The position numbers and the translations under genes are program-made. Positions 7,936-24,566 of a DNA stretch of 28,611 bases are shown here, piece by piece. Origin of the DNA: a virus; the IMG/VR virus record IMGVR_UViG_3300044678_000865, positions 1 to 28,611 of that record. One strand, 5' to 3'. Within the stretch, counting starts at the first letter, position 1. Every line of letters begins with the position of its first letter. The notes under the pieces were generated by a model. The model was not told where the DNA came from and did no database searches. It saw only the letters and a list, made by a program, of their open reading frames with translations.

Positions 7936-9192
7936 TTACGATTGTTGTTGTATAAATTCATATTTTGGATATACTGATTTTAAACCAAATACCCACATTC
8001 CTTGAGATAATCCTATAATACTCCAATCTGTTGCAACTGTTACAATTGGAACTCCTGGATTATTAACATCATATGCAATTAATCCTAATATTTCTTCAAA
8101 GAATTTATTTTTTGTAGTATTTAATAATTGGATCATAAAATTTGGATTTTTGATTAAATCATTATGTTTTAATTTATTAAACCAAATTGCTGCATTGTTT
8201 GTTTCATTACTAATTTGTTGTCCTATTTTAATAGAAACTTCAGATTGGTCGCCAGATCCTTGTTGTATTTTTTCAAAATCTTCCGATGTTATCCAATATG
8301 ATAATACTTGGTTTCCTGTTTTAATTGTTAATCTAGTATCTCGTATATCAGTATCTAAATCAGATTTCCAAAGTATTTGGTGAATTAATTGAAATCCACT
8401 GTACATTTGTGACCATCCACTTTTATAACTTATTTCCGTGCTAGCTACATTATCCATTAACGGAACAAATATTTTTTCAAGTACTTGAATCAATTCATTT
8501 AATTGTCGCCAAGAATGTGGATCTACTAGATCTTTTAATTCTTCAAATGAATCTCCCATTTCTGATAATGGTTTTACAATATCATTGAAAAAGTTTACGG
8601 TTTGTGTTAATAAGTCACCATCAACTGGCATACCGGATTTTGCGGGACGAAATGTTTTTCCTTCTGGCGCCTTACCCATTTCTCCAGATTTGGTTGGTCT
8701 AGGCAATTTACCAATTTCTTTAACTTCCCATTGGCCCACAGGCATAATGATATCATGAGATGCAGTACCACCTGGTTGCGAATCTTTTACTGCTAATAGT
8801 ATTTGAATTTCACCTTTACCCATTCCTGCAGCAGATTTACCAATTGGTAAGATATCATAAAATTTAGTAAATGCCTTATAACCGCCGGCCATAAACGATT
8901 CAATCGTATGTTGACGATAGTTTTTATCAAATTCTTGTTTTTCTTGTGGAGATAAATTTTCGTAACGATTTTGTATTTGTTGAGTTAAATCGTCTGATAA
9001 ATTTAATTGCGAAAATTCTATTTGTTCTGTTATTATGCCCTGAGCTTTATCAACTACAATTCTAGCTTCCAATGGCGTTAAATCAGTCATTTCTAAAATA
9101 ACATGATATAACAACTCATAATCTTTCGATCTAGTTGGATAACCTTTTGGTAATCTATAACTCCATTCTGTAAGTATTGAATCGATTGTCAT
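7936..9192 (-). CDS. Hypothetical protein with possible PD-(D/E)XK nuclease-like core (418 aa)
   Basis: The N-terminal part (MTIDSILTEWSYRLPKGYPT) is of a type found on various marine phage proteins and is followed by a helical region. The central segment GKGEIQILLAVKD (125-137), then SHDIIMP (145-151) and QWEVKEIG (154-161), gives Glu128, Asp147 and Glu156-x-Lys158. This spacing suits a PD-(D/E)XK nuclease fold. The C-terminal half (170-418) has no motif I know. The gene overlaps the polymerase gene by 4 nt and precedes the 128-aa gene, so it is expressed with replication functions, which would fit a nuclease. The alternative is a structural protein with a coincidental E-V-K motif. The ILTE at residues 6-9 also fits an L/I-x-E prohead-protease site, but this is weak. 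Confidence 0.75.
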   Translation of the reverse strand: MTIDSILTEWSYRLPKGYPTRSKDYELLYHVILEMTDLTPLEARIVVDKAQGIITEQIEFSQLNLSDDLTQQIQNRYENLSPQEKQEFDKNYRQHTIESFMAGGYKAFTKFYDILPIGKSAAGMGKGEIQILLAVKDSQPGGTASHDIIMPVGQWEVKEIGKLPRPTKSGEMGKAPEGKTFRPAKSGMPVDGDLLTQTVNFFNDIVKPLSEMGDSFEELKDLVDPHSWRQLNELIQVLEKIFVPLMDNVASTEISYKSGWSQMYSGFQLIHQILWKSDLDTDIRDTRLTIKTGNQVLSYWITSEDFEKIQQGSGDQSEVSIKIGQQISNETNNAAIWFNKLKHNDLIKNPNFMIQLLNTTKNKFFEEILGLIAYDVNNPGVPIVTVATDWSIIGLSQGMWVFGLKSVYPKYEFIQQQS

Positions 9193-10511
9193 AATGAGAT
9201 AGTTTTCATTTTATCATAAATATCGCCGACTTTACATTTTACCGGCAAATTTCCTTGTTCTAACATGTTTTTGAGCTGAGGCAAAAGATCCTTAGCTTCT
9301 GTATAATCTACATCAAATAAAATTGAGTCATATGTATATAGAATTATACAACTATTATAATTTTGTAATAACGTTTGTACTTGCTGCAATTTTCTTACGG
9401 ATACTTCGGTTTCAATGGCCTGCAAATAATAATTAAACAATTTGAATGCGGTCATGTTTTGCACTGCATCTTTGCATATACTTCGTTTTGTTATTGGAGT
9501 TTGTATGCATCCATTCCGTTTCCATTTATCCCATAACGTGTATACAAAATCATTGACTCGTTTAAAAAATGGAATTGTCAAAAATTCAGCATCAATACCT
9601 CCATATAACAATCGAAATGTTATGGCTTTGCTTTCTGCACGTTGTTCTTCAGTTAATTCTGCGGTATCAAAATAAAATCGTCCCAAATAATCATGTATGG
9701 ATGACTCTGGTAATTCATATCCAATAGCCGTAGCAATCAATCTAACGTGATATGAATCAAAGTCCATTTCAACTAATGCACCTCGTTCAAACCGACTACA
9801 AAATGCAGTTCTGGTGCCATCTTCTTTATTCATTGCCGCAAAATTGAATCCTCCAAATGCATTACTAGGTCGACCGGTCGTTGTATGATAATTGTATTGT
9901 GAATATACGCGGTCCACATGAATCAATTCTGGCATACGAAACTCTTCGGTAACTGCTAATCCTACGGATTCTATTTGCGCAAATACCTCCGGATATGTTG
10001 CATTGAATTGCAAATACGATTCTGTTAATTCTGCATTTACGCACATTGGCCATGCATAGTGACGAATCTTTTGACACATTGCCAAATGTTGCTGTAACGG
10101 AACAATGCTATTTACTGCCGGTAATGATTTATGTCGACGCCAATAAAATTGATGTGCAGTGGTTGGATAATGCGATTCATCATATGCTTCTGAATATGTA
10201 TACCACCACAACGTCTTAACATCCCATACGGCAGCATTTCCTCCCGTTTGTAGCCATTGCTTCTTGTCATGAACAAAGATATTCTCTAATGCCAAAAACT
10301 TCGGGACATGTTCAGTAAAGCCCCTTAGTTGTTCAGAATGCCGAAAAGGAATTATTCTTTCTAGATCATCTTCCGTATAAATGTATACAGCACATAACGT
10401 ATTTGCTGCAACATGAATTGTAGGACTACAGAATATTGGCACTAACAACGTTTTGCGTCCTTGTATGTAACGCAATGTGCTTAGTACATCTTCTTCAGTA
10501 TCCACAATCAT
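9189..10511 (-). CDS. Divergent family A DNA polymerase lacking a recognisable exonuclease motif
   Basis: The 440-aa protein carries polymerase I-type motifs. TTGRPSNAFGGFNFAAM (211-227) matches the GR...N segment. Motif A is VEMDFDSYHVRLIA (Asp250, Arg257), motif B is RAESKAITFRLLYGG (Lys295, Phe299, Tyr303), and motif C is LYTYDSILFDV (Asp395). Aligned to E. coli Pol I, the steric-gate Glu710 is His255 and the HDE of motif C is Tyr394-Asp395-Ser396. Residues 1-150 resemble a decayed 3'-5' exonuclease domain (for example VPIFCSPTIHVAANTL) without the D-x-E metal site. T4 relatives normally use a family B polymerase (gp43), which is not seen here but could lie outside the window. It overlaps the next gene by 4 nt and follows a 22-nt gap after the virion-type gene at 10534-11160. 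Confidence 0.82.
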   Translation of the reverse strand: MIVDTEEDVLSTLRYIQGRKTLLVPIFCSPTIHVAANTLCAVYIYTEDDLERIIPFRHSEQLRGFTEHVPKFLALENIFVHDKKQWLQTGGNAAVWDVKTLWWYTYSEAYDESHYPTTAHQFYWRRHKSLPAVNSIVPLQQHLAMCQKIRHYAWPMCVNAELTESYLQFNATYPEVFAQIESVGLAVTEEFRMPELIHVDRVYSQYNYHTTTGRPSNAFGGFNFAAMNKEDGTRTAFCSRFERGALVEMDFDSYHVRLIATAIGYELPESSIHDYLGRFYFDTAELTEEQRAESKAITFRLLYGGIDAEFLTIPFFKRVNDFVYTLWDKWKRNGCIQTPITKRSICKDAVQNMTAFKLFNYYLQAIETEVSVRKLQQVQTLLQNYNSCIILYTYDSILFDVDYTEAKDLLPQLKNMLEQGNLPVKCKVGDIYDKMKTISL

Positions 10512-17505: not shown

Positions 17506-17766
17506 TTACTTTTTTGAAGTCACAGGCCCGCGAGATACGTTACTTGTCGGTTTCGGATCTGGTTGCAATTTTTCATTGACTTTATTGATCCAAAATTTTC
17601 TTAAAAATATTGGCATTGTATAAACAGTATTCCAATCCCATCGGCCTTCGCCTGCCCAAATTAAATCAAACAATATGTTATGTAATGCTTTTCGATCGGA
17701 TGCATTAAAACCAAAAAAAGTTTGATCCAATTTGAAATTTAGATTTGAAGGTGCCTCCCTGTTCAC
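17506..17766 (-). CDS. Small tail-assembly protein overlapping the gp26-like gene; T4 gp51-like or frameshift extension
   Basis: This 86-codon frame overlaps the gp26-like gene by 62 nt in another frame. Its core, DLIWAGEGRWDWNTVYTMP (34-52) followed by IFLRKFWINKVNEKL, resembles the 'D-L-I/V-x-x-G-x-G-x-[FW]...Y-x-M-P...LR-x-F' motif of T4 gp51-type hub assembly proteins. The frame has no ATG before residue 51, so independent translation would need the GTG at 17766 (no clear Shine-Dalgarno) or a TTG. The alternative is expression by slippage on the T7 run at 17713-17719, giving a gp26-like fusion of about 320 aa. It lies just before the tape-measure gene, where lambda gpG/gpGT-type chaperones sit. 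The coding status is well supported; the mode of expression is open. Confidence 0.78.
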   Translation of the reverse strand: MNREAPSNLNFKLDQTFFGFNASDRKALHNILFDLIWAGEGRWDWNTVYTMPIFLRKFWINKVNEKLQPDPKPTSNVSRGPVTSKK

Positions 17767-18469
17767 CTTCGAATTCCAATTCTAAATTTACTCCCGGTGT
17801 ATTTGCTTGAACGAATTCTCGAAAACGTTTTGCATCTCGTGCTAAAAATTCATAGCGAATAAAATTTTCAATATCCGTTGCTGATCGTGATGCATTAATT
17901 TGTTTGATTAAACCTTGTAATGCACTAGAAATAGTTCGGTCATCGGTAATTTTTTTTGATTCTCGATTAGTTAAAAATGAAAATTTAAGTGTAAACTTAT
18001 CATTTACTTGATAATCAAATTCTCCATTTTGATCGGCTTGTAATTCAAATGGCAAAAAGGTTAATTTAGTTAAATCAGCAGTCCGCTCATATGTTTTGCC
18101 AGTTTCTGGATCTGTTACTTGTACAGGATATTCCGGACCATATGATAAAATACGAGCTTGAATAATTAATGCATCTTTATCTGCTTGTGCAATCGTGTCT
18201 GCATCAATTCCTGGCGTAATAATCAAACTTTCAATCAATTTATCTAAAACAATGCCTTCTCGTATATATGATAAATTAGTTAAAATATCTTCATCATATG
18301 CTGTCATGTATCGCATTTCAAGTTGTCCGTTTCGTAACGGGTGCGATTCGGGATAAATTTTACCTGCCGATGGCAATGAAATTATTTCTGTTGGAATTGT
18401 ATTGCGCTTGGTTTGTTCGTATTGTTGCTTAGCAAGTGCAATGATGTCTTGATTTGTTACTGATTTCAT
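17705..18469 (-). CDS. gp26: Baseplate protein / tail-assembly chaperone, T4 gp26 family (254 aa)
   Basis: The signature is SLPSAGKIYPESHPLRNGQL (31-50) followed by EMRYMTAYDEDILTNLSYIR (51-70) and LDKLIESLII, the typical start of T4 gp26-type baseplate proteins. The middle has NAxYGPEYPV-like strands (SYGPEYPVQVTDPETGKTY) and the end has FLARDAKRFREFVQANTPGV. The C-terminus FQIGSNFFWF resembles the family ending in a FFWP-type motif, so the zero-frame product is probably complete. An AAAGGATA-type Shine-Dalgarno lies 22 nt downstream of an ATATTTAT motif. The gene lies after the tube gene and its terminator and before the tape-measure gene; it may also feed a frameshifted fusion with the 86-aa frame. 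Confidence 0.87.
   Translation of the reverse strand: MKSVTNQDIIALAKQQYEQTKRNTIPTEIISLPSAGKIYPESHPLRNGQLEMRYMTAYDEDILTNLSYIREGIVLDKLIESLIITPGIDADTIAQADKDALIIQARILSYGPEYPVQVTDPETGKTYERTADLTKLTFLPFELQADQNGEFDYQVNDKFTLKFSFLTNRESKKITDDRTISSALQGLIKQINASRSATDIENFIRYEFLARDAKRFREFVQANTPGVNLELEFEGEQGGTFKSKFQIGSNFFWF
17713..17719 (-). other. Candidate slippery site: seven T residues in the gp26-like/86-aa overlap
   Basis: The zero frame reads AAC TTT TTT TGG TTT TAA and terminates two codons after the run. The 86-aa frame is read if the ribosome moves +1 or -2 on the run (TTT TTT GGT TTT AAT). Transcriptional slippage on the same homopolymer would also connect the frames. Confidence 0.5.
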
Positions 18470-18546: not shown

Positions 18547-19077
18547 TTAGAAACTTAAGAATGCCCAATCGTAACGAAGAGTTAATTCAATAGTAACTAC
18601 ATCTTCCGTTGACCAATCCAATGATCCAAAGTTTGCATCAACAATATATGTTCCGTTTAAGATCCATTCTTCAATTACTTCACCTAATGGAGAAAGTTGT
18701 TTCAATCTTACTTCTTTTTTATAAAATGAAGAATACCCATCGCGGCCTGTTGCTGATTCATGATGTAAACGAATCCATTCCATTACTGCCTGTGCACCTG
18801 ATGGAACAATTGCATCATAAAGTGATACCGAAATTGTATTCCAAACAGATTTACCTTTAACATAACGCTGTACGTTAATATGATCTAAAGTAATTTCTCC
18901 GTTTGCAATACTAGGTTTTGCTGATGCTTTAATTAAATATGCAGGAACATCGCCAATTGACATGATAAATTGATGTTGTTTTTTTGGTTCCCATGAAAAT
19001 GCATTACTATAAAATCCTGCCGGGTTTTCTCCAGCATAATCCGTTAAGTTGCCATTTACTTGATCTTGTAGTGCCAT
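18547..19077 (-). CDS. gp19: Tail tube protein, T4 gp19 type (176 aa)
   Basis: This is the major structural subunit of the rigid inner tail tube. At 176 aa it is close to T4 gp19 (163 aa). Features are FSWEPKKQHQFIMSIGDVPA (28-47), then YLIKASAKPSI, LDHINVQRYVKGKSVWNTIS (64-83), VSLYDAIVPSGAQAVMEWIR (84-103), and the closing strand NGTYIVDANFGSLDWSTEDV with VTIELTLRYDWAFL. This is the standard tube fold order. The Shine-Dalgarno is AGGA. The gene lies directly downstream of the sheath but is transcriptionally separated by terminators on both sides, which would allow expression independent of the sheath. Confidence 0.93.
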   Translation of the reverse strand: MALQDQVNGNLTDYAGENPAGFYSNAFSWEPKKQHQFIMSIGDVPAYLIKASAKPSIANGEITLDHINVQRYVKGKSVWNTISVSLYDAIVPSGAQAVMEWIRLHHESATGRDGYSSFYKKEVRLKQLSPLGEVIEEWILNGTYIVDANFGSLDWSTEDVVTIELTLRYDWAFLSF

Positions 19078-19160: not shown

Positions 19161-21659
19161 CTACTGCGTAAATGTCGCACCTGTTGATTGAATATTGAAA
19201 TCTAAAACAATAAATTCTGCAGTTCTGGTTGGTTGCAAAAATAATTGTCCGTATAAAATATTTCTATCAATTAAATCTGGTGTATTATTTGAAGCATCCA
19301 TTACTACACGGAAAACTGACAATCCTTGTTGTGCTCTTACTTGTTCTAAATAAGGATTAACAATTGCCAAGAATCTGTCTCGTGTCTGCGATGTATTTTG
19401 TTCAAATACCAAATAACGAGTTGATGATGCAATAAATTTCTTGATTGTAATCAATAATCGACGTACATTTACTCGGTCTAATGCACTTGGAAGAGACTGT
19501 AGTGTCTTTTGACCCCAAATCACTATACCTTCGTTAGGGAAGTTCGCAATAGGATTAACGCGAGCTTCATACAATGTATCTCGATCTGCTTGTGCTAAAG
19601 ATTGATATGTATCAATTACAGAATTTAAACTACCACGATTCAAACCAGCTGGTGCATACCATGGAGCTGCAACTGCATCATTGAATGCCAATGCGCCTGG
19701 AACAACAACTGAAGGTGGTACCCAAATTGGAACATTCTTGCTAGGATTAACAATTCGCACCCATGGCCAATATGTTGCAGTATAATTATCATCAATATTT
19801 TGTACTTGTGATGTTACGGTTGATATTGAATCAGTTAATGCATTTGAATCCATTACATAGAATGTATCTTGACGAGTTGTAGCCAAATCTCTAGCTGCAG
19901 TTGTCACCGCAGAATGCAAACTATCAATAACACCTGGGGTAAGCAACATATTAACATCATAATAATCTGTATTGCTTAACAATGTAAATGCTTTATTATA
20001 AGCTTTCGTACCCGTACTAGTTGAAGTTGAACAATCAAATCCAAATGTATTTGTAGAAGCAATATTGATTCCAGAATATTTAGGTAAATTTGGACGAGTA
20101 CCATCAAATCCGCCTTGGAATGGCATAATGAATTTTCTAGTAGTTAAAGCAACATTAGTTGTAAATGTAGACCCCGTCAATGCTGCTTGCAATGAACCAC
20201 TATATGCAGCGGTTAATGAAGGAAATCCTGCTTGTCCATCTTGATTTACATCACCTAAATAAAAATCTGAATTGCTACCAGTATTTGAACCTGATGTTGG
20301 AATTGGAGCTAAATAATTAATATTGTTTTGTGCGGTAAAATCAAATCCTAAATAATTCTTTGAACTATATTCAGATGCAACAACTTGCGATGTTTTATAT
20401 GTTGCTGCAGATAAATTCAATGTACCAGATACCATCGGTATTGGTGAATTAACAGCACGGAATCCAAATGGTACCAATGTTTTATCAATAGTTGAATTTG
20501 AAACTGCATCTGCTACTTCAACTCGAATATATTGTGAATTATTTGAATAATCGCCATTTACAAAAAGTTGTCCATTGTCATTTACTGTTTGATATCGATC
20601 TCCAATTATTCTTGCAATATATCTAGATGAATTTGGATTCAAATTGACATTAGTAAATGTTTCTACAACATCAGGAACTTTGTCGGTATCTTGAGATGAA
20701 TATGGAGAATTTGGAATACCTGGTGTAGGTGATAATGAATTTACTCTACGAATTTCTACTGTAAAGGCTCCATATCCTGCAGGATCGCCTGTTTCGGTTG
20801 ATAATCTAACATCTCGGATACCAATCTTTGTTTCATAATTTACTGATGTGCCATGTGACAATGTATGAAACTTAAATAAATTTTTAGTAAGCGAACCAAT
20901 TTTTTGCGATGTTACCCACGGCGTTGATGCTACATTGTAATCTTGTAAAAATTCATAATTTGAAATTTTTTCTAATGATATTGTAACATTGGCTAAATTT
21001 GCAAACAATGATGATGCAGCAAGATTTTCATATTGCACGTATACTGGATAATCTGTTGATTTAGGAGATGTTCCAAATACTTTTGAAATATAATTGTTTG
21101 CTGTAGATACAATTGATGCTGATATTGGAGTTGTTTCACTTACTAAGAATGAACCACCAAATCCAATTGCACTTGCGTCATTACCAGTTGCGACTGCATA
21201 TGAACCAGAAACTGTAATTGCAAATGACCCCGAAGTACTAGATGCTATTACTGAATCTTCGAATAGATTGGTTGCACCCGTTGTAGTTACTGCTTGAACT
21301 GGATGTAATATGTGTGTTACAACTTTTGTTGAACCTGATTGTGCAACAACTGCCAATCCACCATTAGTTAATTTATATCCATCTTCATACAATAAACGTG
21401 TTACGGTAATTACGTTACCATTACGTAAATAATCTTGAACTACATATGGAACGTATGAATCATCCGTAAATGATCCAAATTGTGCCGTAAACTGTCCAAA
21501 TGATGTGATTTGTGTAGGAACTAAAGCAGGCCCTTTTGTTGTTGGTCCTACAATTGCTGCTCCTATTTGCGCAATAGCTCCAGGTAAAAACGATTGATCA
21601 ATTTCATTCGTAAATACACCAGGAGAAACTATTCCAGCGCCTATTTGTCTTTCTGCCAT
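19161..21659 (-). CDS. gp18: Tail sheath protein, T4 gp18 type (832 aa)
   Basis: This is the contractile sheath subunit that drives the tube through the host envelope. The start AERQIGAGIVSPGVFTNEID (2-21) with QSFLPGAIAQIGAAIVGPTT and KGPALVPTQITSFGQFTAQF is the standard sheath N-terminus. The C-terminal half has the conserved fold elements: NEGIVIWGQKTLQSLPSALD, RVNVRRLLITIKKFIASSTR, YLVFEQNT, then the end FIVLDFNIQSTGATFTQ. At 832 aa it is longer than T4 gp18 (659 aa); the extra length is in the middle (about residues 100-560), where outer domains are inserted in other sheaths. An AGGAG Shine-Dalgarno precedes the start, 22 nt downstream of an ATATTTAT motif, and a terminator follows the stop. 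Confidence 0.95.
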   Translation of the reverse strand: MAERQIGAGIVSPGVFTNEIDQSFLPGAIAQIGAAIVGPTTKGPALVPTQITSFGQFTAQFGSFTDDSYVPYVVQDYLRNGNVITVTRLLYEDGYKLTNGGLAVVAQSGSTKVVTHILHPVQAVTTTGATNLFEDSVIASSTSGSFAITVSGSYAVATGNDASAIGFGGSFLVSETTPISASIVSTANNYISKVFGTSPKSTDYPVYVQYENLAASSLFANLANVTISLEKISNYEFLQDYNVASTPWVTSQKIGSLTKNLFKFHTLSHGTSVNYETKIGIRDVRLSTETGDPAGYGAFTVEIRRVNSLSPTPGIPNSPYSSQDTDKVPDVVETFTNVNLNPNSSRYIARIIGDRYQTVNDNGQLFVNGDYSNNSQYIRVEVADAVSNSTIDKTLVPFGFRAVNSPIPMVSGTLNLSAATYKTSQVVASEYSSKNYLGFDFTAQNNINYLAPIPTSGSNTGSNSDFYLGDVNQDGQAGFPSLTAAYSGSLQAALTGSTFTTNVALTTRKFIMPFQGGFDGTRPNLPKYSGINIASTNTFGFDCSTSTSTGTKAYNKAFTLLSNTDYYDVNMLLTPGVIDSLHSAVTTAARDLATTRQDTFYVMDSNALTDSISTVTSQVQNIDDNYTATYWPWVRIVNPSKNVPIWVPPSVVVPGALAFNDAVAAPWYAPAGLNRGSLNSVIDTYQSLAQADRDTLYEARVNPIANFPNEGIVIWGQKTLQSLPSALDRVNVRRLLITIKKFIASSTRYLVFEQNTSQTRDRFLAIVNPYLEQVRAQQGLSVFRVVMDASNNTPDLIDRNILYGQLFLQPTRTAEFIVLDFNIQSTGATFTQ

Positions 21660-22265: not shown

Positions 22266-24566
22266 TTATGTTATTAAGTTTATAATTGAAGATACAGCGG
22301 CATTAAATCCTGTACCTGTTCCATTAAATACAACAGATCCTTGATTGAATGTGCTATCATATGCTGCCAATTGGTTCATTTTTACAATATTTCCAACTGC
22401 GTTACCATTGTATGTTGTACTTTGATTTCCAACATATATGTTATTGTTTTTATCCGTACTCAATGCTTGGACATATGCTGGACTTAATGGGTTTAGGTTA
22501 AATCCGGTAGTGGGTGCAAATGTTGTATCTTTTGTTCCGTTAGGAGTTAGTTTTATAATGCGCGGAGATGCAGATCCTGAATAAGTAGTAAATGATCCAT
22601 ATGCTATAATAGAATCATCTGCTAAAACTTTCAATGCTACGATACCATTTGCACCGAATCCCGTTCCAATGTTAAATGTAGTGTCCTTAGTGCCGTCAGT
22701 GTTTATTCGAACTATGTAGTTATTCGTTGAGCCTGAGTATATGCTGAAATTTCCGCCAACAATAATTTTTCCTGTGGATTGTATTCCAATTGCAAATACG
22801 GAGGTAGTGTTAAAGCCGCTTCCCATATTAAATGTGATGTCCTTAGTTCCATCAGTGTTTATTCTAACAATGCCGGCGTTTGAACTACCTGAATATGCTG
22901 TGGTCGCTCCTATTGCTATGATTTTTCCATCGGATTGGAGAGCTAGTTGATAGATGTTTCCAGTACTTCCTAGACCTACATTAAATGTAGTGTCTTTAGT
23001 ACCGTTAGTGTTGATGCGCACAATGCCACTATTTGTTGAACCCGAATATGTTGTAAATGTACCTGCAGCAATAATTTTTCCATCGGGTTGAACTTTCATA
23101 TCATATGCAGACCCATTAAGCCCCGTACCAGAAATAAATGTAGTATCTCTAGTACCATTGGTGTTTATTCTAGCAATTCGCACACTGCTAGAGCCGCTAT
23201 ATGATGTAAATGAAGGACCTGAAATAAGAAGTTTTCCATCAGATTGCGTTACCATGGAAGTAACATTATTGCCAGGTCCGATACCCACGTTAAACGTAGT
23301 ATCTACAGCACCGGTATTGTCTAATTTTACAAGATAGTTAATTGGTGGAGCTTGATATGTTGTATAATCTCCACCCATGTAGATATTGCTACCAGATATT
23401 AATACAGCTCGTACGGTTCCATTAAACCCTGCACTAGACTGTCCATTAAATGCAATGCTTCCGGAAATAAACGTACTGTCTATGGCTCCGCTAGGTGTTG
23501 TTTTTATAAAACGATTAACTGTAGATCCACTATATGTTGTAAAGGTACCTCCGAGATAAACATTTCCTGAGTTGTCTAAAGAAAATACATTTAAGACGCC
23601 AGCTGATGTACTACTAATTCCATTGCCTACAACATATGACGTATCGACTTGCCCGTTAGATAATACTCGAGCAAGACTAACTCTAGTACTACCACTTACT
23701 GATGTAAATGCACCATTTATTAGAATTTTTTGATCGGGTTGTATTTTTACAGCATATACCAAGCTGTTAATTGTTCCAGGATTAAATGTAGTATCTACGC
23801 TACCATTATCGTTTAATCTCGTAAGTCGTGTTACTGTGGACCCACTATATGTTGTTGCTCCATGTCCTACAACTATTTTACCATCCGATTGAATATCTAT
23901 TGAATATACTGTAAAGTTAGTAAGAAATCCAGCACCGGTATTGTATGTAGTATCTCGAGTTCCGTCAGTATTAATACGCAAACTACCCGTTCCTATTAAC
24001 GAACCCGAGTATTGTGTTATTGTTGTACCCCCTACTAGTATTTTACCGTCACTTTGAATAGCTACGCAATTTGCAGTATTATTAAGTCCCGTACCTATAT
24101 TAAATGTAGTATCATATGTTCCATCGGTGTTTAGTCGAACTATTCTATTTCTAATTGATCCAGAGTAAGTTGTAAAGGCTCCAACTGCTATGATTTTTCC
24201 ATCAGATTGTACTCTCATATCATTTACTGCTGCGCCAAATCCAACTCCCGTATTAAATGTAGTATCTCGCGTACCGTTGGTGTTTACTCTAACCATGTTA
24301 CCTACGGTTGATCCGCTGTATGAACTAAAACTCCCACCGAGTAATAGTTTACCATCGGATTGGGTAACCATGCAGTTTACAGTGGAGGAAGGTCCGGTGC
24401 CCATATTAAATGTAGTATCAATAGAACCAGATAAATCGGTTCGAATAAGTCGACTGTAAATTGGTTGACGATATGTTGTAAAATTACCGGCTACATATAG
24501 GTAATCCAACAGAGCCGGTGTGATTCCAGGTATAAATTGTTGTATAAATGCAAAAGGTGTAAACAT
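22266..24566 (-). CDS. Delta-60-repeat beta-propeller protein, probable host-contact fibre or adhesin (766 aa)
   Basis: From residue 23 the protein is built of about fourteen repeats of roughly 50 aa with the consensus TRDTTFNxGxG, then VQSDGKIIxGGxFTTYSGSx and IVRINTDG. This is the delta-60 repeat, which forms beta-propeller blades and is common in secreted adhesins of Bacteroidota and in some phage fibres. The repeats form two halves of 372 aa each (23-394 and 395-766) with matching landmarks, which suggests two seven-bladed propellers. There is no signal peptide or lytic motif. It follows the 277-aa fibre-like gene by 3 nt and precedes the small beta protein. Receptor binding or surface attachment is inferred from the repeat type and neighbours. 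Confidence 0.85.
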   Translation of the reverse strand: MFTPFAFIQQFIPGITPALLDYLYVAGNFTTYRQPIYSRLIRTDLSGSIDTTFNMGTGPSSTVNCMVTQSDGKLLLGGSFSSYSGSTVGNMVRVNTNGTRDTTFNTGVGFGAAVNDMRVQSDGKIIAVGAFTTYSGSIRNRIVRLNTDGTYDTTFNIGTGLNNTANCVAIQSDGKILVGGTTITQYSGSLIGTGSLRINTDGTRDTTYNTGAGFLTNFTVYSIDIQSDGKIVVGHGATTYSGSTVTRLTRLNDNGSVDTTFNPGTINSLVYAVKIQPDQKILINGAFTSVSGSTRVSLARVLSNGQVDTSYVVGNGISSTSAGVLNVFSLDNSGNVYLGGTFTTYSGSTVNRFIKTTPSGAIDSTFISGSIAFNGQSSAGFNGTVRAVLISGSNIYMGGDYTTYQAPPINYLVKLDNTGAVDTTFNVGIGPGNNVTSMVTQSDGKLLISGPSFTSYSGSSSVRIARINTNGTRDTTFISGTGLNGSAYDMKVQPDGKIIAAGTFTTYSGSTNSGIVRINTNGTKDTTFNVGLGSTGNIYQLALQSDGKIIAIGATTAYSGSSNAGIVRINTDGTKDITFNMGSGFNTTSVFAIGIQSTGKIIVGGNFSIYSGSTNNYIVRINTDGTKDTTFNIGTGFGANGIVALKVLADDSIIAYGSFTTYSGSASPRIIKLTPNGTKDTTFAPTTGFNLNPLSPAYVQALSTDKNNNIYVGNQSTTYNGNAVGNIVKMNQLAAYDSTFNQGSVVFNGTGTGFNAAVSSIINLIT
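22269..23384 (-). repeat. Second seven-blade unit of the propeller gene
   Basis: Residues 395-766 repeat the order of landmarks in residues 23-394: TTY(R/Q)xP near the start, FNxGxGP and (S/T)xMVTQSDGKLL next, and an xxFNG...GFNxxV block at the end. Confidence 0.7.
23385..24500 (-). repeat. First seven-blade unit of the propeller gene
   Basis: Residues 23-394, paired with 22269-23384. Seven repeats of about 50 aa, the last one longer and carrying an IAFNGQSSAGFNGTV insert that recurs in degenerate form at the protein end. Confidence 0.7.

Follow-up and report, generated by a model that had tools for sequence, protein, structure and literature searches.

How might a T4-related phage with a single gp26-like gene make two tail assembly chaperones? 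According to the Atkins review, long-tailed phages share a conserved G-T frameshift, T4 excepted, and T4 has been the standing exception to frameshift-made tail chaperones. The answer given in 2022 was that T4 gp26 and gp51 are chaperones produced from separate genes (Vladimirov, Gautam and Davidson 2022, as related in the citing papers PMC10885494 and PMC12846349). Here we analyzed a viral sequence of 28,611 nucleotides from IMG/VR (record IMGVR_UViG_3300044678_000865, positions 1 to 28,611; hereafter the window), in which a gp26-like open reading frame (ORF1) is overlapped at its 3′ end by a second frame (ORF2). Sequence comparison with relatives makes it very likely that this is one gene from which a programmed +1 ribosomal frameshift gives rise to two tail chaperones. 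What is new is a +1 branch of the gp26/gp51 chaperone system, together with a covarying upstream hairpin with a Shine-Dalgarno-like loop in the window's own family. A literature search, with subscription journals outside its scope, found no description of the +1 variant.

The layout of the locus agrees with what the initial annotation, made from the letters alone, had described. ORF1 ends in GGA TCA AAC TTT TTT TGG TTT TAA, its stop lying two codons after a run of seven Ts (17713-17719). An 86-amino-acid frame (17506-17766, minus strand) overlaps this end at an offset of +1, equivalently -2. The candidate start of this frame is a GTG at 17766 and its first methionine is residue 51, so that no ATG precedes that residue, as had been noted. 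The fusion of ORF1 and ORF2 is predicted to be about 320 amino acids long, the length first proposed. The pair was also correctly placed between tail tube and tape measure: a gene matching PHROG 4542 lies upstream, and an ORF related to the tape measure protein of Flavobacterium phage immuto lies downstream (Table 1).

Relatives were searched in IMG/VR with ORF1, ORF2, and their homologues from Microcystis phage Mel-JY01 and Flavobacterium phage immuto. Three groups of viral contigs were obtained, namely the window's family (W) and groups M and I, with 98, 64, and 52 junctions, respectively, after identical ones had been removed. A protein profile of ORF2 was then searched in all three frames at each junction. 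At all 214 distinct junctions the ORF2 homologue scored highest when read +1 to ORF1, an agreement well above chance, and each of these junctions carries the joining motif NTT-YTT-T(GG/AT/AC) or its CTA variant. The motif appears as CTTTTTTGG, TTTTTTTGG, ATTTTTTGG, CTTCTTTGG, ATTCTTTGG, and TTTTTTTAT in W, as TTTTTTTGG, CTTTTTTGG, and TTTTTTTAC in M, and as TTTCTTTGG, TTTTTTTGG, TTTCTATGG, and TTTCTTTAC in I. In group M, codons as far as -6 have a third-position entropy near 1.9 bits; the value falls to 1.2 at codon -3 and to exactly 0 in both shift codons, the pattern expected of a defined shift site.

Many of these relatives lack a usable start codon for the second frame. At 30 junctions, all from M and I, there is no ATG, GTG, or TTG between the upstream +1 stop and codon 12 past the junction, which excludes an independent start at those junctions. 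A +1 stop stands directly before the shift codons in ten loci (L183-L186, L189, L193, L203, L207, L216, and L221). The +1 junction also occurs in isolates: Microcystis phage Mel-JY01, Flavobacterium phage immuto, Bacillus phage SP-15, Listeria phage LIS04, and Streptococcus phage GXN1. The +1 extension follows TTT-TTT-C in SP-15, TTT-TTT-A in LIS04, TTC-TTT-C in GXN1, and TTT-CTA in the 484-kb metagenomic phage LR756508. Searching IMG/VR for relatives of SP-15 returned SP-15 itself only.

Upstream of the junction, family W displays an RNA hairpin that the initial annotation overlooked and that is probably part of the frameshift element. A stem of 5-10 base pairs can be folded in all W loci, about 28-51 nucleotides upstream of the shift codons. 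Its commonest version, GAAGGTG...CACCTTC, occurs in the great majority of loci and encloses a purine-rich loop of 9-10 nucleotides with GGAGG, GGGAG, GGGGA, or AAGGA. Compensatory changes preserve the stem (GAAGACG/CGTCTTC in L146-L157, AAGGCG/CGCTTT in L095-L097), while L126 and L159 retain it displaced by one codon. Among 58 aligned W sequences, 97.5% of cells are paired compared to 95.0% in shuffles, and there are 12 double changes compared to 1.8 (none of 500 shuffles had as many); slid controls were 42-56% paired. Native W sequences fold at -9.0 kcal/mol, while recoding the same protein with synonymous codons gives -3.2 kcal/mol; the mean z is -3.7, with 59 of 61 loci below -1. The conserved hairpin, with its Shine-Dalgarno-like loop, probably stimulates the shift or sets its rate in W. 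Downstream (3′) structure gave no signal in W, M, or I. A second W hairpin (GGUUU at -20 with AGACC at -4), considered as a source of constrained third positions, was unsupported, being 85.5% paired versus 85.7% in shuffles. Purine-rich Shine-Dalgarno-like runs (AAGGAG, GAGGAGGG, GGGGAAGGAG) are frequent 25-35 nucleotides upstream of the shift codons in M and I (L169-L328). They are not universal in these groups, as L184, L192, and L213 lack them.

Within W, two positions are candidates for the shift itself. The T-run motif is the ancestral site, because the tree nests W inside M. The other candidate is UUU-C (17737-17734), at codon -18, that is, 18 nucleotides upstream of the T-run codons and 10 nucleotides past the end of the hairpin. 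It is plausible, if tentative, that W shifts at this UUU-C directly after the hairpin and that the T-run owes its preservation solely to its coding for Phe-Phe in both frames. From codon -18 on, no +1 stop was observed in W compared to 28 expected under synonymous recoding, and farther upstream the counts are near expectation (1 vs 2.3; 5 vs 4.9). The Phe at codon -18 is always TTT followed by C (TTT in 61/61), and the Leu at codon -12 is CTT in 18/18, though CTT accounts for 8% of the codons for Leu. At codon -3, Asp and Asn codons of W nearly always end in C. Conservation extends to the +1 peptide L-x-Q-T, with TTG, TTA, and CTG interchanging. The simple reading of this pattern is that the +1 frame in W is already translated from about -15, which would make UUU-C at -18 a shift site.

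Other observations speak against a shift at UUU-C in W. The T-run motif is still intact, and the nearest relatives outside W lack the UUU-C codon and would shift at the final Phe-Phe site. Few stops are expected just upstream of codon -18, hence the boundary is soft, and a constraint at the RNA level could give the same pattern. If UUU-C is used, the push might come from the hairpin refolding about 10 nucleotides upstream, at the ribosome's trailing edge, with the Shine-Dalgarno-like loop as a second stimulator, a mechanism that we put forward with some reserve. Such a +1 frameshift signal would be of a new type, with a hairpin on the 5′ side, no structure on the 3′ side, and a sense codon occupying the A site. 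The predicted tryptic peptide is FQIGSNFFGFNASDR for a shift at the T-run, and LDQTFFGFNASDR preceded by KFK for one at UUU-C.

A programmed +1 shift, at either position, must also be weighed against the idea that ORF2 is an ordinary overlapping gene that starts at a GTG, ATG, or TTG. Most W loci do have candidate starts, GTG at -54 and TTG at -18, but no start is universal in W: the GTG is absent from several lineages, and the TTG is TTA in four. In L007 an in-frame stop comes just after the GTG, and L154 also has a stop after it, the frame being open for ten codons only. Moreover, the GTG sits within the hairpin stem, the +1 frame of W shows no stop avoidance upstream of -18, and the 30 junctions of M and I have no start codon in reach. 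We consider a separate gene highly improbable. An alignment of homologues had been proposed by the initial annotation as the way to decide the matter, and it came out in favor of frameshifting: the offset holds throughout the relatives and the shift motif persists, while the GTG is not conserved.

TTTTTTT would equally allow polymerase (transcriptional) slippage or a -2 ribosomal shift, and the frame had originally been described as open to entry by +1 or -2. We find these routes scarcely credible. Transcriptional slippage needs a long run, which is missing from CTTCTTTGG, ATTCTTTGG, and TTCTTTCGT. After a -2 shift, re-pairing by standard pairing fails at TTT-CTA-TGG (L259, L270, and L281) and at TTC-TTT-CGT (Streptococcus phage GXN1), whereas every variant (UUU-U, CUU-U, and UUU-C) allows re-pairing in +1. 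The CTA and TTC-TTT-C variants thus point to a shift of +1 rather than -2, which amends the original description. No one codon serves all groups: ATT-TTT-TGG requires the second codon of the motif, and TTT-CTA-TGG the first. The predicted fusion peptide is SNFFFGFNASDR, with an extra Phe, for a -2 shift, and SNFFGFNASDR, without it, for a +1 shift at the T-run.

The chance that an assembly indel in the homopolymer or inactivation of a fused gene explains the locus is negligible, for although seven Ts are a typical error site, the same seven are found in four contigs from separate metagenomes that are 98-99% identical to the window (L002-L005), six W junctions with only three consecutive Ts (CTTCTTTGG, ATTCTTTGG) have the offset unchanged, and that offset is common to 214/214 relatives. 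These short-run junctions also qualify the original proposal of a programmed frameshift at the seven-T run: the shift motif is conserved, but the homopolymer itself is not essential.

The two products can be placed by family and gene order. ORF1 is a member of PF12322 (2.4e-8; 34.4 bits compared to a family cut-off of 24.5), in which T4 gp26 and gp51 both fall, and it matches PHROG 150 (3.6e-12). A gene located between tail tube and tape measure that yields two nested products has the anatomy of tail assembly chaperones, as in lambda gpG/gpGT (PMC5009743). ORF1 and ORF2 fit such a chaperone pair, with a short form (TAC-N, 254 amino acids) and a long form (TAC-NC, about 320 amino acids). The predicted structure of ORF1 has a pLDDT (predicted local distance difference test score) of 93.8. 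Its best match among solved structures is YqbN (3klu; Z 6.1, root-mean-square deviation 4.4, 86 aligned), followed by the HK97 tail assembly chaperone (2ob9; Z 5.7, root-mean-square deviation 8.3, 92 aligned), at Z values that can arise by chance. Searching solved structures by sequence with the ORF1 and ORF2 profiles gave no relative. ORF2 alone has no Pfam or PHROG match, its fold search gave none, and its hidden Markov model did not match T4 gp51.

Several points weigh against reading the locus as a chaperone gene expressed by frameshifting. The structural matches of ORF1 are weak (Z about 6), and Foldseek returned no match under E 0.001. The ORF2 profile aligns weakly to the C-terminal extension of gp51 (residues 205-252; hhalign P 0.046), which is suggestive only. 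The hairpin is confined to W, and upstream folding in M and I is weak or none (z -0.2 to -1.2). Finally, an ATG, GTG, or TTG stands somewhere in the +1 frame at all W junctions, so that within W alone an independent start is formally conceivable.

We propose that the locus acts as one expression unit for two proteins. The majority of ribosomes would reach the ORF1 stop and produce the short chaperone of about 254 amino acids. A minority would slip +1 near the end of ORF1, with the peptidyl-tRNA re-pairing from YUU (or UUU) to the overlapping UUU/UUC and one base being skipped. These ribosomes would read ORF2 and yield a chaperone lengthened at its C-terminus by about 68 amino acids, about 320 in total. 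In W, the hairpin just upstream would act on the shift or its rate. By analogy with lambda gpG/gpGT, the short form may coat the tape measure protein and the extension may recruit tail tube subunits. Sequence comparison establishes the frame relation, the shift motif, the missing starts in many relatives, the hairpin, and the protein family; the shifting of ribosomes in vivo and its rate, the role of the hairpin, and the chaperone function of the products are predictions.

The likeness to lambda gpG/gpGT and P2 E/E' lies in the position between tail tube and tape measure. Those systems shift -1, the opposite direction to the one here and that of most known phages, whereas the extension frame here is +1 in 214/214, so that a -1 shift at an XXXYYYZ heptamer is not what is found. 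Nor is any sequence similarity shown between the lambda and P2 chaperones and ORF1, a gp26-type protein of 254 amino acids. T4 is closer, since gp26 and gp51 share PF12322 with ORF1 and the C-terminal extension of gp51 takes the position of ORF2. In the account of PMC10885494, T4 has two separate genes and no frameshift, whereas here a single gp26-like ORF is followed by a frame that holds the extension only. The initial annotation had suggested that gp26/gp51-type proteins might be the T4-branch version of the G/GT system. This idea is not new (Vladimirov et al. 2022, through citing papers), and T4 itself uses two genes. According to the passages that cite Vladimirov et al. 2022, some T4-like phages have one short and one long gene instead of a frameshift (PMC10885494), and T4-like chaperone genes are known to carry -1 signals of the poly-T type (PMC12846349).

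We found -1 extensions at T-TTT-TTC or T-TTT-TTG in cyanophage S-CAM8, Vibrio phage phi-Grn1, Delftia phage PhiW-14, and Rhizobium phage RL2RES, and after ATT-TTC in Mooltan. As in the window, the first four phages enter the extension of a homologous gp26 gene at a Phe-Phe (or Phe-Leu) codon pair near its end, but in the -1 frame rather than the +1 frame of W, M, and I. The extension is unannotated in S-CAM8 (L336) and Mooltan (L339), whereas RL2RES (L337), PhiW-14 (L338), and phi-Grn1 (L341) have it annotated in part or listed as a small hypothetical gene. In the tree, a fully supported branch divides +1 from -1 or separate genes, with one exception, the long-branched jumbo phage LR756511. 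This 595-kb phage (L167), the only -1 member among the +1 branch, has a -1 extension with T-TTT-TTC plus an ATG overlapping the ORF1 stop.

The shift codons CUU-U and UUU-U recall the +1 frameshift of prfB (release factor 2). In prfB, a stop codon occupies the A site and a Shine-Dalgarno element lies 3 nucleotides upstream. Here, by contrast, the A site holds UGG (or UAU, UAC) instead of a stop, and no Shine-Dalgarno sequence lies directly upstream, the Shine-Dalgarno-like sequence being in the hairpin loop about 35 nucleotides away; the signal is thus not of the prfB kind. A myovirus tail chaperone gene of Halovirus HSTV-2 is also thought to use +1 (PMC5009743); HSTV-2 is an archaeal virus, likened to the present gene by description only.

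Collectively, the comparison suggests that T4-related phages have reached three solutions for the same gene: two genes in T4 proper, a -1 shift in the cyanophage and KVP40 types, and a +1 shift in a branch abundant in IMG/VR contigs. These solutions form a natural series for asking how the direction of frameshifting changes, and the W hairpin offers a testable upstream stimulator of +1 shifting. The extension is omitted or truncated in the annotated records examined, and the predicted long chaperone is therefore missing from those proteomes.

Table 1 Features of the chaperone locus and its neighbors in the window
Feature	Coordinates	Strand	Evidence
ORF1, gp26-like gene; proposed short tail assembly chaperone (TAC-N) as zero-frame product, 254 amino acids	17705..18469	minus	PF12322, PHROG 150
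ORF2, +1 frame (GGT TTT AAT GCA ... stop); proposed C-terminal extension of long chaperone (TAC-NC), 68 codons	17506..17712	minus	homologous +1 frame in 214/214 distinct junctions
TTT TTT TGG shift motif (YUU-U, UGG in A site); ancestral +1 shift site of the family	17711..17719	minus	third-position entropy ~0 there in all groups
TTT-C, second candidate +1 shift site (UUU to UUC)	17734..17737	minus	TTT in 61/61 non-redundant W loci; +1 frame stop-free onward
RNA hairpin GAAGGTG-AACAGGGAGG-CACCTTC, Shine-Dalgarno-like GGGAGG in loop	17747..17770; arms 17764-17770 and 17747-17753	minus	conservation in W
TAA, zero-frame stop of ORF1	17705..17707	minus	
Tail tube gene, upstream context	18547..19077	minus	PHROG 4542, 3.4e-22
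Probable tape measure protein gene, downstream context, 660 amino acids	15503..17485	minus	blastp match (2e-11) with the tape measure protein annotated in Flavobacterium phage immuto

Other genes of the window, all on the minus strand, also deserve mention. The tail sheath (19161-21659, 832 amino acids) has its Pfam sheath domains confined to the C-terminal third, with a large unmatched middle part. Between 7936 and 10511, a DNA polymerase A domain (PF00476, 5e-9) lies in 9189-10511 and is followed, with a 4-base overlap, by a 418-amino-acid ORF without a Pfam match; this is possibly a two-gene polymerase, in a phage whose tail genes are T4-like. Adjoining the tail genes, a 766-amino-acid protein (22266-24566) consists of DUF5122 beta-propeller repeats (PF17164, 5.6e-128) and is possibly a tail-associated or adhesion protein.
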